From Cyanobacterium sp. HL-69 (GTDB lineage Bacteria > Cyanobacteriota > Cyanobacteriia > Cyanobacteriales > Cyanobacteriaceae): a stretch of 64,000 nucleotides of DNA. Shown piece by piece: positions 18,871 through 28,161 of this stretch (the stretch's first letter is position 1; each line of letters begins with the position of its first letter). The translations under genes and the position numbers were made by a program. Below the pieces are notes generated by a model. It was not told the DNA's origin, made no database searches, and saw only the letters and a list, made by a program, of their open reading frames with translations. The stretch is from contig CP024912.1 of assembly GCA_002813895.1 (NCBI GenBank), positions 1,550,001 to 1,614,000 on the forward strand, in the 5' to 3' direction.

Positions 18871-19718
18871 GGGCGTGTCATCAAATAAAAGAGAATAACA
18901 GATAAAATAAGGATGATAGTAATTGTGACAAAAGTGAGGATATGGTAGAGATGCGCAGGTATGGTTTGAGAGACGATCAATGGGAAAAAATTAAAGATTT
19001 ATTACCGGGTCGATTTGGTACAGTGGGAGTCACCGCCAAAGATAATCGACTTTTTGTCAAAGCGGTATTGTACAGGTATCAAGCTGGTATTCCTTGGCGA
19101 GATTTACCTAGTCGATTTGGTGATTTTAGAGTGGTTCATACTCGTTTTAGTCGTTGGAATAAAAAAGGTGTCTGGGAAAAAGTTTTTCAAATTTTGGCAG
19201 GAGATAGTGACGATGAATATGCCATGATTGATTCAACCATAGTAAGAGCACACCAGCATAGTGCTGGTGCAAAAGGGGGGATAAAAACGAGGAAGCAATA
19301 GGTCGAAGTAAAGGAGGTTTAAGTACAAAAATTCATACTACGGTTGACGCATTAGGTAATCCTACAGGTTTTTTCCTCACCGGAGGACAAAAATGTGATT
19401 TGGACGGTGCAGATGTTTTACTAAAAGAAATAAAGGCAGATATTTTGTTAGGGGACAAAGGTTATGATGCGGATGAAAGAGTTCTGGAAAAGCTAAAGAA
19501 GCAGGATAAAATAGCGGTTATTACACCAAAAAGAAATAGAAAAGAACAACGAGAATATGATAAGTATTTATATCAAGCAAGACATTTGATTGAGAACTTT
19601 TTTGCCCGATTAAAACAATATAGAGCCATAGCCACTAGGTATGATAAACGAAAAATAAATTTTCTTGGTGCTATTTATCTAGCCGCAGTCGTTATATGGC
19701 TTAATTGATGACACGCCC
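18871..19718 (+). mobile_element. IS5-family (IS427 group) insertion sequence, apparently intact
   Basis: An 848-bp element with terminal inverted repeats GGGCGTGTCATCAA at the left and its complement at the right end (TTGATGACACGCCC). It is flanked on both sides by TA, consistent with a 2-bp target duplication. It carries a complete two-frame transposase. It sits inside the remains of an ISAs1 element. Confidence 0.93.
18942..19708 (+). CDS. IS5/IS427-type transposase, two frames joined by -1 frameshift
   Basis: The first frame (18942-19301) encodes the helix-turn-helix-like part RRYGLRDDQWEKIKDLLPGR and the first catalytic Asp in YAMIDSTIVRAHQHS. The second frame, entered by a -1 shift at a run AAAAGGGGGG (19275-19284), continues DKNEEAIGRSKGGLSTKIH, with the second Asp in LGDKGYDADERV and Glu in RHLIENFFARLKQYRAIATR. 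The pattern is the usual programmed frameshift of this group, so the gene should be functional. The stop TGA lies inside the right inverted repeat. A second possible start is ATG at 18951. Confidence 0.9.
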
Positions 19719-20375: not shown

Positions 20376-21524
20376 TTAACTAGGAATCATTTGATTTTCC
20401 AAATCTGAAGAAGAATCAAAATTATTCAACAAAAGTTTGCCAGAATCAGACTGCTCAATTTGATTAATCATAAATTGAATCATCGGTTTAGCAATAGTAC
20501 ATTCTAACTTGCCATTTTCATCATAAACTCGCTCACTAGAAATGGCCTCTGCAATGGGTAACTGATTACAATAACCATAAAAAGAACAACTATGACAGTT
20601 TTCCGAACGACTTTGACGAACAGAAATCGTATGCTCATATTCAGCACTTTGTCTAATTTCGGTCAATGATTGACGAAAAATGTTGCCCATCAAACCATCA
20701 GCAGAATAGGCATCCCCATGGCTATAGACATCCCCATTGGTATTAACGATATATGCCCATTCTTCCGTTTGAGGATTATAAATAGTTTTTTGCCCCCCCG
20801 CTAAATAACGAACTGCTGCTTTAAAATAGTCCCATATAGGTAAAACTTTAATATTAGTAGGTTGAGCAAATTGAGCCTTTGCCACCTCTTGAAGCGCCTT
20901 TAAAGTTTGTTCATGACTCACCAAAATGGGTTCAACCCGTGGAGGAGGATTGGTGTGACTAAAAATGGGCAACATTCTATAGCTTATGTGCAAATCATTA
21001 TAAAACTCATAGGTGGGTAACACATGATTGATATTAGCTCCATGAAGTACCATAATTGCTGCAAAAGGAATATTTCTGTCTATCAGTCTTTGCATATTAT
21101 CCAAGACTCGATCTTGAGAATCTTTTCCCTTAATATCTATTCTTTGATTGCCAAATACATCAAAGGACATACCCAAACTAATTTCCAACTCCTCTAGTAA
21201 ATCTAAAGTTGCATCGGAAATCTGTACCAAATTACTTTGCACTCCATTGGTATATTCCAAACCTGCTGAGTCTAAATATTTTTTTTGTATTTCCCGAAAA
21301 GCTCGTAAATAACTATGGGGTAACAATAACGCCTCTCCTCCATGTAAAATAAAATTAACTACTCTATTTTCCACAGGTTGTGATTTTAAATAAATTGCTA
21401 AATTACGGAAGAAAAAATCTAGTCCCTCTAAAGGCATTCTTTCTTTATTGTCTAATTCTTCGTATTCATAGCAATAATTACAGCGTAAATTGCAAAGTTT
21501 ACTTAACTTCATTACAAAGTGCAT
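20376..21524 (-). CDS. Radical SAM/SPASM enzyme, putative peptide maturase
   Basis: A 382-residue cytosolic radical SAM enzyme. The [4Fe-4S] cluster motif is C11-NLR-C15-NY-C18. The SAM-contact glycine region reads FILHGGEALLLP. The C-terminal SPASM-type cysteines are C310, C313, C319 and C342 (CHSCSFYGYC, then LECTIAKP), enough for an auxiliary cluster. This design is typical of enzymes that modify ribosomal peptides. The gene begins at ATG 21524 after AGGAG, 84 bp below the stop of the tryptophan-repeat protein on the same strand, so the two form a likely operon. It does not look like the GrrM/OscB family start, so I give no symbol. The reaction is inferred from context. Confidence 0.85.
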   Translation of the reverse strand: MHFVMKLSKLCNLRCNYCYEYEELDNKERMPLEGLDFFFRNLAIYLKSQPVENRVVNFILHGGEALLLPHSYLRAFREIQKKYLDSAGLEYTNGVQSNLVQISDATLDLLEELEISLGMSFDVFGNQRIDIKGKDSQDRVLDNMQRLIDRNIPFAAIMVLHGANINHVLPTYEFYNDLHISYRMLPIFSHTNPPPRVEPILVSHEQTLKALQEVAKAQFAQPTNIKVLPIWDYFKAAVRYLAGGQKTIYNPQTEEWAYIVNTNGDVYSHGDAYSADGLMGNIFRQSLTEIRQSAEYEHTISVRQSRSENCHSCSFYGYCNQLPIAEAISSERVYDENGKLECTIAKPMIQFMINQIEQSDSGKLLLNNFDSSSDLENQMIPS

Positions 21525-21608
21525 TTTTATTCTCCTAATTCATAAAATGTATTGGAAATAGGAGAAACTCTGATGTTTTCTCCTACTATTTTGTCTTTGC
21601 TCTGTTAA

Positions 21609-22313
21609 TTATCTTCCGAAATTATTAGGAGTAGTGGTATTACGAGGCATGGTATTGATTCTTCCAGGTCGAACGGGCGGTTCTACGGGGGTACTAGGAT
21701 CTACGGGGGTTATAATGCGAGGAGATACTCGATTATTATCAAGTTGAATTCGGTCAAAGCTATCTCTTACTCTGGGGATGCTGGTACCATTTTCAAGACG
21801 ACGCATTTGATCATCTCCACTGGCATCTCTTTCCCAATTTCCTCCTTCTCTCCAACCAGATTCAGACCAAGGGCCAGCATCAGGGCCTTGCGTCCAAGTA
21901 CCTCCCTCTGTCCAACTCTGACTAACAAGATCGCAGTTACCAATACATTCTTTGGCTACCTGTCCATTTGTGATAAGTCCTTCTTGAACTGTTAAAATTT
22001 CTCCGCTAACAAATCGGTAAAATCCATCTTGTAAGGGTTTACGAATTCCACCATTTTCGATTTGATAGGCTCGGTTTCCTTCTAGTTGGATTAGATTTTC
22101 TTTGATTTCTTTGATTTGTAAACTACTAGGGGCGATCGCACCGTTTCTCTCAATCAATTGGCCATTTTGTGCCGATGCTGATTTAACTAAATTTTGGTCT
22201 AGTACCTGAAATAGTTGACCAGCCAAGCCACTTTGATGGGCAACGGATAAACCGGCTACAGCCACCAAGGCAAGAACTATATTTTGAGAATTGTTATTTG
22301 GGATTTTATCCAT
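21609..22313 (-). CDS. Putative RiPP precursor with W-x-(E/Q/R) repeats
   Basis: A 234-residue protein of unknown family. Residues 11-25 are hydrophobic (NIVLALVAVAGLSVAHQ), so it is probably exported or anchored; ASAQ near residue 48 could be a cleavage site. A central region (about 53-118) contains AYQIENGGIRKPLQDGFYRF and is of beta character. Then come C123 and C127, and a 29-residue cluster with tryptophans at 134, 140, 149, 154 and 160, each followed at +2 by E, Q, E, E and R (WTE, WTQ, WSE, WRE, WER), spaced by Gly/Pro. The tail is Pro/Arg/Asn-rich. The radical SAM gene follows in the same direction. A modified-peptide precursor is the best reading; the modification is inferred. Confidence 0.6.
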   Translation of the reverse strand: MDKIPNNNSQNIVLALVAVAGLSVAHQSGLAGQLFQVLDQNLVKSASAQNGQLIERNGAIAPSSLQIKEIKENLIQLEGNRAYQIENGGIRKPLQDGFYRFVSGEILTVQEGLITNGQVAKECIGNCDLVSQSWTEGGTWTQGPDAGPWSESGWREGGNWERDASGDDQMRRLENGTSIPRVRDSFDRIQLDNNRVSPRIITPVDPSTPVEPPVRPGRINTMPRNTTTPNNFGR

Positions 22314-24918: not shown

Positions 24919-27900
24919 ATGGCTATCGAAAAACAAACCTCCAACTATGGAGCAGAGCAAATCCAAGTACTGGAGGGGTTAGAACCTGTTAGAAAGCGGC
25001 CGGGGATGTATATCGGTACAACAGGGCCAAGGGGTTTGCATCACTTGGTATATGAAGTTGTAGATAACTCCATTGATGAAGCCTTAGCAGGACATTGTAG
25101 CCATATTGAAGTAGATATTAATGAAGATGGCTCAGTCAGCGTTATTGATGATGGGCGGGGTATTCCCACCGATGTCCACCCTAGCACCAATCGATCTGCC
25201 CTCGAAACCGTAATGACGGTGCTTCACGCAGGGGGAAAATTTGGCGGCGGTGGTTATAAAGTCTCTGGGGGTTTGCACGGGGTAGGTATTTCCGTGGTAA
25301 ATGCCCTTTCTGAATGGGTAGAGGTGAAGGTATGGCGTAATGGTAGTCTCCACCAACAACGTTATGAAAGAGGGATTCCCATTACCGAATTAGTTGCCCA
25401 ACCTGATGCGGAGCATTCTACTGGTACATCCATCAGTTTTATGCCCGATGCTCTCATTTTTAGCGAAACCACAGAGTTTAATTACGCCATCCTTTCCAAT
25501 CGTTTAAGGGAATTGGCTTACCTCAATGCGGGAGTTAAAATTACCTTTGGCGATCGCCGTTTAGAATCTTTAAAAGAAGAAACCTACTGTTATGAAGGGG
25601 GTATCAAAGAATACGTCACCTACATGACAAGGGAAAAAGATGTTCTCCATCAAGACATTATCTATGTAGAAGGAGAAAAAAATGGCGTACAAGTAGAAGT
25701 AGCCTTCCAGTGGTGTATAGATGCCTATAGCGATACAATCTTAGGCTTTGCCAACAACATCCGCACCGTGGATGGTGGTACTCACCTAGAAGGACTAAAA
25801 ACCGTACTAACTAGAACTTTAAACAACGTTGCCCGTAAACGTAATAAAATTAAAGAGAATGAACCCAACCTTGCAGGGGAGAACGTCCGAGAAGGTTTAA
25901 CCGCAGTAATTTCCGTAAAAGTACCCGATCCCGAATTTGAAGGACAAACGAAAACGAAACTCGGTAACTCCGAAGTGCGCGGTATCGTTGATTCCCTCGT
26001 AGGGGAAGTATTAAACGAATACTTAGAATTTAATCCCCATGTAGCCGACAGCATCATTGAAAAAGCAGTTCAAGCCTTTAAAGCTGCCGAAGCGGCCCGT
26101 CGTGCCAGAGAATTAGTACGCCGTAAATCCGTTTTAGAATCTTCCCCCTTACCCGGAAAACTCGCCGATTGTAGTACAAGAGATCCCTCTGAATCTGAAA
26201 TTTTCCTCGTGGAAGGCGACAGTGCGGGTGGATGTTTTTCAGGAGATACAGAAATAGCCCTTGTTGATGGTCGAAATATTAGCTTTAAACAATTAGTACA
26301 AGAGCAGAAAGAGGGTAAAAAACATTTTTGCTATACCATTCGTAAGGATGGAACCATCGGCGTTGAGAGCATTATCCACCCTCGCATCACAAAAAGAAAT
26401 ACCCAAGTTATCAAAGTAACCCTAGATAATGGTGAGCAGATCGTTTGTACTCCAGATCATCGCTTTATGTTGCGTGATGGTAGCTACAAACAAGCTCAAA
26501 ATTTAACTCCAGAAGATTCTTTAATGCCTTTGTACCGCAAAATATCTTCAACTCAAGATAAAGCCATCACCATAGATGGTTATGAAATGGTGTGGAATCC
26601 TCGTTCTGATTCTTGGTTATTTACCCATTTAGTAGCTGATTGGCATAACCGTTGGCAGGGTGTTTACAAAAAAGAAGATGGGCAACATTGTCATCACATA
26701 GATTTCAATAAAAGAAACAATAATCCTACTAACTTAGTTCGTTTAAGTGCTGATGAACATTTAGCGTTACATCGATCGCACTTAGAATATACCTTACACC
26801 GTTCCGATGTAAAAGAAAAATGTCGTCAACTCAGACAAAAAGACGAATTCCGTCAGATGATGAGTGCAAGGATGAAACAGGAGGATACTCGTGAAATATT
26901 ATCCACTAACGCTAAAGCCCTGTGGGAAGATACCGAGTATAAAATTTACATGGCGGAAAAATGGTTAGATTTTTATAACAGTAACCCTGAATACCGTCAG
27001 CAAAACGCTCAACAATTATACGAAGCCCAACAAAAATATTGGAGCGACGAAAATAATCGTCAAATTCAAAGTGAGAAAGTAAAAGACTTTTTCAAAAATA
27101 ATCCTTCTGCCCGTCAAGAATTGTCTGATTTGGCAAAAAAACAGTGGGAAGATCAGGATTTATTAGATTGGAGAAGAGAAGAGACTAAAAAACAGTGGAC
27201 TCCTGAGTTTAGAGAAAAGCGTCGTCAAGCCTTAGCAAAAACTTACTATAACAAAACCATCTGTGCCCTCAAGCAAATTGAAATAGATTGCGGTTATGTG
27301 GATATTGAAGCCTACAATCAATATCGTTTACAAACAAAGGATAAAACCTTATTAAAGTTAGAAACCTTTGGAGAACGTTATTTTCACGGCAATCAAGAGC
27401 AAGTTTTGGAAGCCGTTGCTAATTATAATCATCGAGTAGTAAAAATTGAGCCTCTCACAGAATTAATTGATGTTTATGACATAGAAGTACCCCATACTCA
27501 TAACTTTGCTTTGGCTAGTGGTGTCTTTGTTCATAATAGTGCAAAGCAAGGGCGCGATCGCCGTTTCCAAGCCATCCTACCTCTAAAAGGTAAAATCTTA
27601 AACATCGAAAAAACCGATGATGCTAAGATTTACAAAAATAATGAAATTCAATCCCTAATTACTGCATTGGGTTTAGGTATCAAAGGGGATGAATTTGATC
27701 CAAGTCAACTCAGGTACCATCATATCGTGATTATGACTGATGCTGACGTAGATGGCGCGCACATCAGAACCCTTTTACTGACTTTCCTTTACCGTTATCA
27801 AAGAGAATTGGTAGAGCAGGGATATATCTATATTGCTTGTCCTCCCCTTTATAAACTAGAAAGAGGAAAAAATCATTATTACTGCTATAGCGAAAGGGAA

Positions 27901-28161
27901 TTGCAGGAAAAAATAGCTGAGTTTCCTAGCAATGCTAACTATAGTATCCAAAGATTTAAAGGTTTAGGGGAAATGATGCCCCAACAGTTGTGGGATACCA
28001 CCATGAATCCTGAAACCCGCATGATGAAAAGGGTTGAAATTGAAGATGCCGCAGAAGCCGATCGCATCTTTACCGTGTTAATGGGTGATAGAGTAGCCCC
28101 CCGACGGGAATTTATTGAAACCCACGGGCCACGACTAAATCTAACAGAACTAGACGTATAA
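24919..28161 (+). CDS. gyrB: DNA gyrase subunit B containing an intein
   Basis: The ATPase subunit of gyrase, which negatively supercoils DNA. The host part is 645 residues: ATPase motifs VRKRPGMYIGTTG, EVVDNSIDEALAG, DGRGIPTDVH, then GGLHGVGISVVNALSEW; the TOPRIM motif FLVEGDSAGG is interrupted by an intein at residue 439, and the rest continues SAKQGRDRRFQAILPLKGKI and IVIMTDADVDGAHIRTLLL. After removal of residues 439-873 the sequence is a normal GyrB. The ATG at 24919 is preceded by AAGGGGA. A 20-base palindromic hairpin follows the stop. Confidence 0.97.
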   Translation: MAIEKQTSNYGAEQIQVLEGLEPVRKRPGMYIGTTGPRGLHHLVYEVVDNSIDEALAGHCSHIEVDINEDGSVSVIDDGRGIPTDVHPSTNRSALETVMTVLHAGGKFGGGGYKVSGGLHGVGISVVNALSEWVEVKVWRNGSLHQQRYERGIPITELVAQPDAEHSTGTSISFMPDALIFSETTEFNYAILSNRLRELAYLNAGVKITFGDRRLESLKEETYCYEGGIKEYVTYMTREKDVLHQDIIYVEGEKNGVQVEVAFQWCIDAYSDTILGFANNIRTVDGGTHLEGLKTVLTRTLNNVARKRNKIKENEPNLAGENVREGLTAVISVKVPDPEFEGQTKTKLGNSEVRGIVDSLVGEVLNEYLEFNPHVADSIIEKAVQAFKAAEAARRARELVRRKSVLESSPLPGKLADCSTRDPSESEIFLVEGDSAGGCFSGDTEIALVDGRNISFKQLVQEQKEGKKHFCYTIRKDGTIGVESIIHPRITKRNTQVIKVTLDNGEQIVCTPDHRFMLRDGSYKQAQNLTPEDSLMPLYRKISSTQDKAITIDGYEMVWNPRSDSWLFTHLVADWHNRWQGVYKKEDGQHCHHIDFNKRNNNPTNLVRLSADEHLALHRSHLEYTLHRSDVKEKCRQLRQKDEFRQMMSARMKQEDTREILSTNAKALWEDTEYKIYMAEKWLDFYNSNPEYRQQNAQQLYEAQQKYWSDENNRQIQSEKVKDFFKNNPSARQELSDLAKKQWEDQDLLDWRREETKKQWTPEFREKRRQALAKTYYNKTICALKQIEIDCGYVDIEAYNQYRLQTKDKTLLKLETFGERYFHGNQEQVLEAVANYNHRVVKIEPLTELIDVYDIEVPHTHNFALASGVFVHNSAKQGRDRRFQAILPLKGKILNIEKTDDAKIYKNNEIQSLITALGLGIKGDEFDPSQLRYHHIVIMTDADVDGAHIRTLLLTFLYRYQRELVEQGYIYIACPPLYKLERGKNHYYCYSERELQEKIAEFPSNANYSIQRFKGLGEMMPQQLWDTTMNPETRMMKRVEIEDAAEADRIFTVLMGDRVAPRREFIETHGPRLNLTELDV
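26233..27537 (+). other. Intein in GyrB, HNH-endonuclease type
   Basis: A 435-residue in-frame insertion at the classic GyrB site between GDSAGG and SAKQG. It starts with Cys (CFSGDTEIALVDG, block A), has the block B motif CTPDHRFMLRDG, and ends in block F/G VYDIEVPHTHNFALASG and FVHN, followed by Ser, so all splicing residues (Cys1, block B His, terminal His-Asn, Ser+1) are present. In the middle is an HNH nuclease motif (HCHHIDFNKRNNNPTNLVRL) and a helix-rich repeated region (KALWEDTEYKIY, KKQWEDQDLL), not a LAGLIDADG domain. The element should both splice and home. Confidence 0.96.

Follow-up and report, generated by a model that had tools for sequence, protein, structure and literature searches.

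A pair of adjacent genes in the window (the whole 64,000-nucleotide stretch of Cyanobacterium sp. HL-69 DNA analyzed here) is best explained as a three-residue cyclophane (triceptide) system of a new branch. The gene of a 234-residue precursor is followed on the same, minus strand, after an 84-bp gap, by that of a 382-residue radical SAM/SPASM enzyme. Judging from sequence, structural models, and analogy with known enzymes, the two probably form a RiPP-type system in which the Trp ring is joined to the β-carbon of the residue at position +2, and it is very likely that the W-x-X3 motifs of the precursor are modified by the enzyme. Our computations establish that the pairing is conserved, that the i/i+2 rule holds and is under constraint, and that the enzyme shares its fold with a known cyclophane synthase.

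Organization of the locus

The features of the pair are listed in Table 1. Both reading frames, their strand, and their spacing coincide to the base with the first-pass annotation, as do the enzyme cysteines (C11-x3-C15-x2-C18 and C310-x2-C313-x5-C319-x22-C342) and the Trp residues at 134, 140, 149, 154, and 160, which yield five W-x-(E/Q/R) units within 29 residues (134–162). The description of each unit as set off by Gly or Pro holds in part, as these residues are not on both sides everywhere: Ser precedes W134 and Ser follows the W149 unit.

Table 1. Coordinates of the precursor–enzyme pair and its predicted elements within the window.
Feature	Position	Strand	Basis
Precursor gene, 234 aa	21609..22313	-	ORF; homologues beside the same enzyme family in relatives; dN/dS 0.15 vs. 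G004 orthologue
Precursor residues 1–48: hydrophobic helix, second conserved helix, invariant A-x-A (46–48); probable export or membrane-anchor region	22170..22313	-	Alignments; model helices 10–21 and 28–42
Precursor residues 74–117: small six-strand β-domain	21963..22094	-	AlphaFold model; duplicated along with core in G026
Precursor core, residues 134–162: WTE, WTQ, WSE, WRE, WER	21828..21914	-	Sequence
Precursor residues 181–190: conserved motif RVRDSFDRIQ	21744..21773	-	About 20 residues past the last core Trp
AGGAGA, ribosome-binding site for enzyme gene	21531..21536	-	Sequence
Radical SAM/SPASM peptide-modifying enzyme, 382 aa	20376..21524	-	PF04055 and PF13186 above cut-off; model vs. 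anSME Z 29, ChlB Z 27
CxxxCxxC (C11, C15, C18), radical SAM 4Fe-4S cluster	21471..21494	-	Invariant in alignments
SPASM cysteines C310, C313, C319, C342	20499..20597	-	Invariant in alignments

The pair is flanked by two glycosyltransferase genes and that of GyrB on one side and by IS remnants on the other. No transporter or protease gene was found among its neighbors in the window, nor does any immunity, transporter, or protease gene co-travel with the pair. The GyrB gene (24919-28161, plus strand) contains an intein, with splicing-region models matching residues 439–517 and 851–874. An IS5-type transposase split in two pieces (18942-19708, plus strand) has a near-identical copy in the same genome (L030:11115-11881, plus strand), near a precursor paralogue that lacks an enzyme.

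Conservation of the pair

Separate searches for the precursor and the enzyme in 100 relatives placed both at the same loci in G000 (the genome of the window), G003, G004, G026, and G070; G000 and G003 each have a second locus, and G026 has two enzymes. Among 390 genomes of the class, both proteins occur in the same four (G000, G026, G070, and G259), of which only G259 is an independent case, since the other three were already in the profiles.

The least biased test of pairing used only the enzyme as query, against 84,980 genomes. It matched Nodularia, Calothrix rhizosoleniae, Richelia, Rivularia, Nostoc CMAA1605, Plectonema (two loci), Bradyrhizobium uaiense, and Nannocystis bainbridge, as well as N. 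pusilla, where the reading frames are frameshifted, so that it falls outside the nine readable loci. A candidate precursor lies directly upstream at all nine, and at eight it carries W-x-(E/Q/D/R); the ninth, in Nostoc, has a short candidate with WKL. The Bradyrhizobium candidate contains WTQ, WGQ, WAQ, and WNR and lacks both the hydrophobic N-terminus and the β-domain, hence these putative recognition elements are not universal. Within the Bradyrhizobium family, no members were found beyond the source genome itself (1 of 150 genomes). A Clostridium match (L053) was dropped, as it covered 28 residues only. Neither protein matched when plasmid carriage was considered, and a link to defense systems was rejected, the similarity being just a weak one to viperin-type radical SAM proteins.

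Conservation of the pair thus extends over scattered cyanobacteria and one myxobacterium, and a rhizobium has a variant of it. Loss of adjacency in relatives had been set beforehand as grounds for abandoning the proposed link; instead, the two genes were found at the same loci across genomes.

In G026, the whole locus is duplicated in tandem together with pieces of neighboring housekeeping genes (L035:6031-13243, plus strand). It holds two nearly identical enzymes, a truncated precursor, and at least four complete ones; tandem modules are present in two of the precursors. A small protein starting with YHGS adjoins the pair in Calothrix, Plectonema, and Bradyrhizobium (L043:6191-6652, L048:6185-6616, and L049:3656-4600); it retains about 40% identity across phyla and weakly resembles ADP-ribosyltransferases (ART-PolyVal) or DUF6886.

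The W-x-acceptor rule

In 15 non-redundant precursors containing 44 Trp residues, 39 Trp (89%) are followed at +2 by Q (13), E (12), D (8), or R (6). Shuffled cores give a mean of 14.2, and none out of 20,000 was as high as 39; offsets other than +2 give 16–45%. For the window precursor alone, E/Q/R at +2 of all five Trp arose in 15 of 100,000 core shuffles. Five of the 44 Trp break the rule, one of them being Nodularia W157, which belongs to the downstream motif and not to the core. Trp-x-Trp occurs once, in G003a.

The acceptor position is not only preferred but preserved. In six related pairs of precursors or modules, whose motifs were matched up by eye, the middle residue (X2) differs in 10 of 16 motifs and the acceptor (X3) in 2 of 16 (p 0.009), both changes being Glu/Gln swaps. 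Within the precursor, constraint is strongest in the core: relative to the G004 orthologue, its dN/dS is 0.064, close to that of the enzyme (0.060), while the β-domain, the tail, and the whole precursor have 0.164, 0.178, and 0.15, respectively. The number of units varies from 1 to 5 among relatives. Hence, the check named in the first-pass annotation turned out in its favor, as Trp and the +2 residue are conserved in homologues and the number of units is not.

As a positive control, we considered two GrrA/OscA-type precursors encoded beside GrrM genes in relatives, which have N/D at +2 in 16 of 16 cases. OscB is reported to link Trp to the β-carbon of Asn or Asp at i+2 (PMC11002830). Taken together, these two facts suggest that our motifs are most simply read as keeping the spacing and changing the acceptor, and the spacing is indeed that of known triceptides, as had been proposed. 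Both features expected of triceptides, an aromatic-x-acceptor motif with the acceptor at i+2 and an enzyme encoded beside its precursor, are found here. At the same time, a review (PMC11002830) lists neither Glu nor Gln as a triceptide acceptor, which counts against a three-residue C–C ring.

Paralogues lacking the enzyme provide a natural comparison. G000 and G003 each have one extra precursor paralogue (L030 6426-7025 and L034 6005-6628), and no enzyme of this family was found within the approximately 6 kb inspected on each side. Both are devoid of Trp: MWLQYCPGGKC of the paired paralogue aligns opposite SLSAEYCVGGSC, so that Trp is lost and Cys is kept (YCVGGSC). The downstream motif VRDTF is absent from its usual place in both.

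Precursor architecture

The predicted layout of the precursor comprises a hydrophobic helix, a second helix, A-x-A, the β-domain (74–117), a disordered core, RVRDSFDRIQ, and a Pro-rich tail. The precursor had no match at all in NCBIfam and Pfam. In its AlphaFold model, the β-domain is the sole confident part (pLDDT about 70–87); since the model is of low confidence elsewhere, the PDB fold search (best E-value 0.66) is uninformative. We propose the β-domain as the leader, or recognition, domain. Two G026 precursors contain the β-domain and core twice in tandem, suggesting that each β-domain serves the adjoining core.

The hydrophobic N-terminus noted at the outset is real (about residues 12–25), but it departs from a classical signal peptide, because a second conserved helix intervenes before the invariant A-x-A (46–48). 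About 20 residues separate the latter from the hydrophobic stretch, and there is little charge in the n-region. Export of the precursor appears likely.

The motif RVRDSFDRIQ has leave-one-out p-values of 0.001–0.016 in 10 of 11 window-clade precursors, including G026a, where the best site is elsewhere. As a rule for every precursor type it was rejected, as it did not reach significance in the sister clade, Bradyrhizobium, and Nannocystis; therefore, it is claimed solely for the cyanobacterial window clade, where its conservation makes it a possible follower recognition site.

Enzyme family

The enzyme scores above the Pfam cut-offs for Radical_SAM (PF04055) and SPASM (PF13186) but below every maturase cut-off in NCBIfam. 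The best profile is the anaerobic sulfatase maturase TIGR03942 (115 bits; cut-off 349), whereas FxsB, XyeB, YhhB, AmcB, DynA, DarE, PapB, and WgkB give 30–112 bits against cut-offs of 340–650. The DynA and DarE models outscore that of GrrM (TIGR04261), which assigns 77.5 bits to the enzyme with a cut-off of 310 and about 540–630 to true GrrM genes in relatives. The enzyme model has a mean pLDDT of 84, and its best fold matches are anSME (Z 29) and ChlB (Z 27).

In a tree of 39 rows, 18 window-clade enzymes form one group (support 100/98) and are sister to a clade of six enzymes, both being separated with full support from 12 GrrM enzymes, although long branches between groups make the deep order unsure. 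The placements of FxsB and YhhB are weak, as their references are sub-threshold relatives only. The earlier suggestion of a branch distinct from GrrM is thus borne out by both profile score (77 vs. 310 bits) and tree. The branch was found under no named family in NCBIfam 20.0 or in the open-access literature searched.

Enzymes of the sister clade are about 35% identical, and their candidate precursors have unrelated leaders, either Nif11 or ordinary signal peptides. Their cores (e.g., KFIDFSDEPLFIE, QFVEFTNPDFIQ, and WTDSWSDSWGE) follow the pattern F/W-x-(D/E/Q/N), with D/E/Q/N at +2. A domain of about 300 residues without a Pfam match adjoins sister-clade enzymes (L037:5634-6545, minus strand; L039:5368-6279, minus strand; L050:2740-7112, plus strand); in a Thermosynechococcaceae genome, two such enzymes carry it as a fusion. 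Its GMHLDS...LIHD-type motifs, identified by eye only, suggest a metal-dependent oxygenase, possibly performing a further tailoring step.

Possible mechanism and alternative explanations

We infer the bond, the recognition elements, export, and the role of the product along the following lines. In the cytosol, the enzyme would recognize the precursor, most likely via the β-domain and the downstream VRDSF motif, and then, motif by motif, link each core Trp through its indole ring to the β-carbon of the residue at +2 (Glu, Gln, or Arg; Asp in relatives). Up to five three-residue cyclophanes would result, with 2 Da lost for each. Thereafter, the hydrophobic N-terminus would probably serve to export or anchor the precursor. 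Modification during export, which the first-pass annotation had allowed for, seems unlikely, as a cytosolic 4Fe-4S enzyme without a signal sequence should act before export. The long N-terminal domain would favor an envelope-bound or secreted protein over a small antibiotic.

A trivial explanation, that a Trp-rich exported protein happens to neighbor an unrelated radical SAM gene, can in effect be dismissed, since the pair is conserved: the genes adjoin across cyanobacteria and in a myxobacterium, an analogous pair exists in Bradyrhizobium, of 390 genomes sampled from the class the same 4 contain both proteins, and several types of candidate precursors obey the same +2 rule. It is also very improbable that the enzyme matures other residues in the manner of a sulfatase maturase or an epimerase, the Trp repeats being an unmodified structural or binding feature. 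Sulfatase maturases, and no triceptide enzyme, do provide the best profile and fold, which counts against cyclophane formation, and many precursors have Cys near the core. However, only W and the +2 positions track the enzyme, the paralogues without it lose Trp and keep Cys, and the window precursor has just two Cys, both outside the repeats.

The nature of the change is a closer question. Action on the W-x-(E/Q) motifs with another outcome (an ether, a C–N link, a link to another residue, β-hydroxylation, or dehydrogenation) is unlikely, though it deserves more weight than the preceding alternatives. The related SPASM enzyme DarE makes a Trp–Trp ether besides a C–C link (PMC9055067), the DynA and DarE models score above that of GrrM, and Glu/Gln acceptors differ from those of known triceptides. 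On the other hand, Trp-x-Trp is limited to the case in G003a, while the fixed i/i+2 spacing, the CH2 β-carbon of the acceptor, the variable middle residue, and the independent repeated units together match the pattern seen in three-residue cyclophanes. The fold match to ChlB, the F/W-x-(D/E/Q/N) cores of the sister clade, and the Trp-less paralogues likewise count for cyclophane formation.

A bolder version of the cyclophane reading, to which we give somewhat less than an even chance, is that of a distinct class, in which a folded β-domain and a downstream motif, not a short leader, deliver the substrate and Trp is joined to Glu/Gln. If so, the product would be a protein-sized, membrane-targeted chain with a run of rigid rings, sometimes built of tandem domain-plus-core modules, and not a small released peptide.

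Peptide-stapling radical enzymes are wanted in chemistry and drug design. The proposed branch would extend the acceptors to Glu and Gln, whose side chains are usable, and would allow as many as five rings to be installed in a single chain; it also offers a possible natural domain for substrate recognition, one found as a module together with its core. Because the branch is spread patchily over three phyla and Trp-less paralogues exist with no enzyme nearby, both specificity and recognition can be tested directly.

Comparison with known systems

Among solved structures, the closest fold is that of anSME, also the best profile; in contrast to anSME, the enzyme has four C-terminal Cys only, its partner is no sulfatase, and its score is below the cut-off. 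The darobactin and dynobactin maturases DarE, DarW, and DynA, which perform Trp-directed cross-linking, are among the best NCBIfam profiles (90–112 bits), but these scores are far below the cut-offs of 450–650; unlike in those systems, the window precursor lacks a W-x-W core, and no transporter genes adjoin the pair. ChlB (PDB 9gm3, 9gmc), a radical SAM multiple cyclophane synthase according to the title of a reference in PMC12636437, is similar in fold (Z 27 over 328–331 residues) and distantly in sequence. It differs in that identity in the structural alignment is 18% and that the hydroxylase domain fused to ChlB (PMC12636437) is absent here.

A similar arrangement is that of GrrM/OscB with GrrA/OscA: there too, a cyanobacterial radical SAM/SPASM enzyme adjoins a precursor, which has a hydrophobic region at the N-terminus and repeats an aromatic-x-acceptor unit with i/i+2 spacing. 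As the first-pass annotation had held, the repeat is not of the Gly/Asn-rich GrrA/OscA type: the precursor does not have Gly-rich repeats with W/F-x-N/D, and no N occurs at +2 of the 44 Trp in the family. The acceptors here are E/Q/D/R, mostly Glu and Gln, compared to N/D in GrrA/OscA, and the core, which has no long Gly/Asn repeat, is accompanied by a β-domain and a downstream motif.
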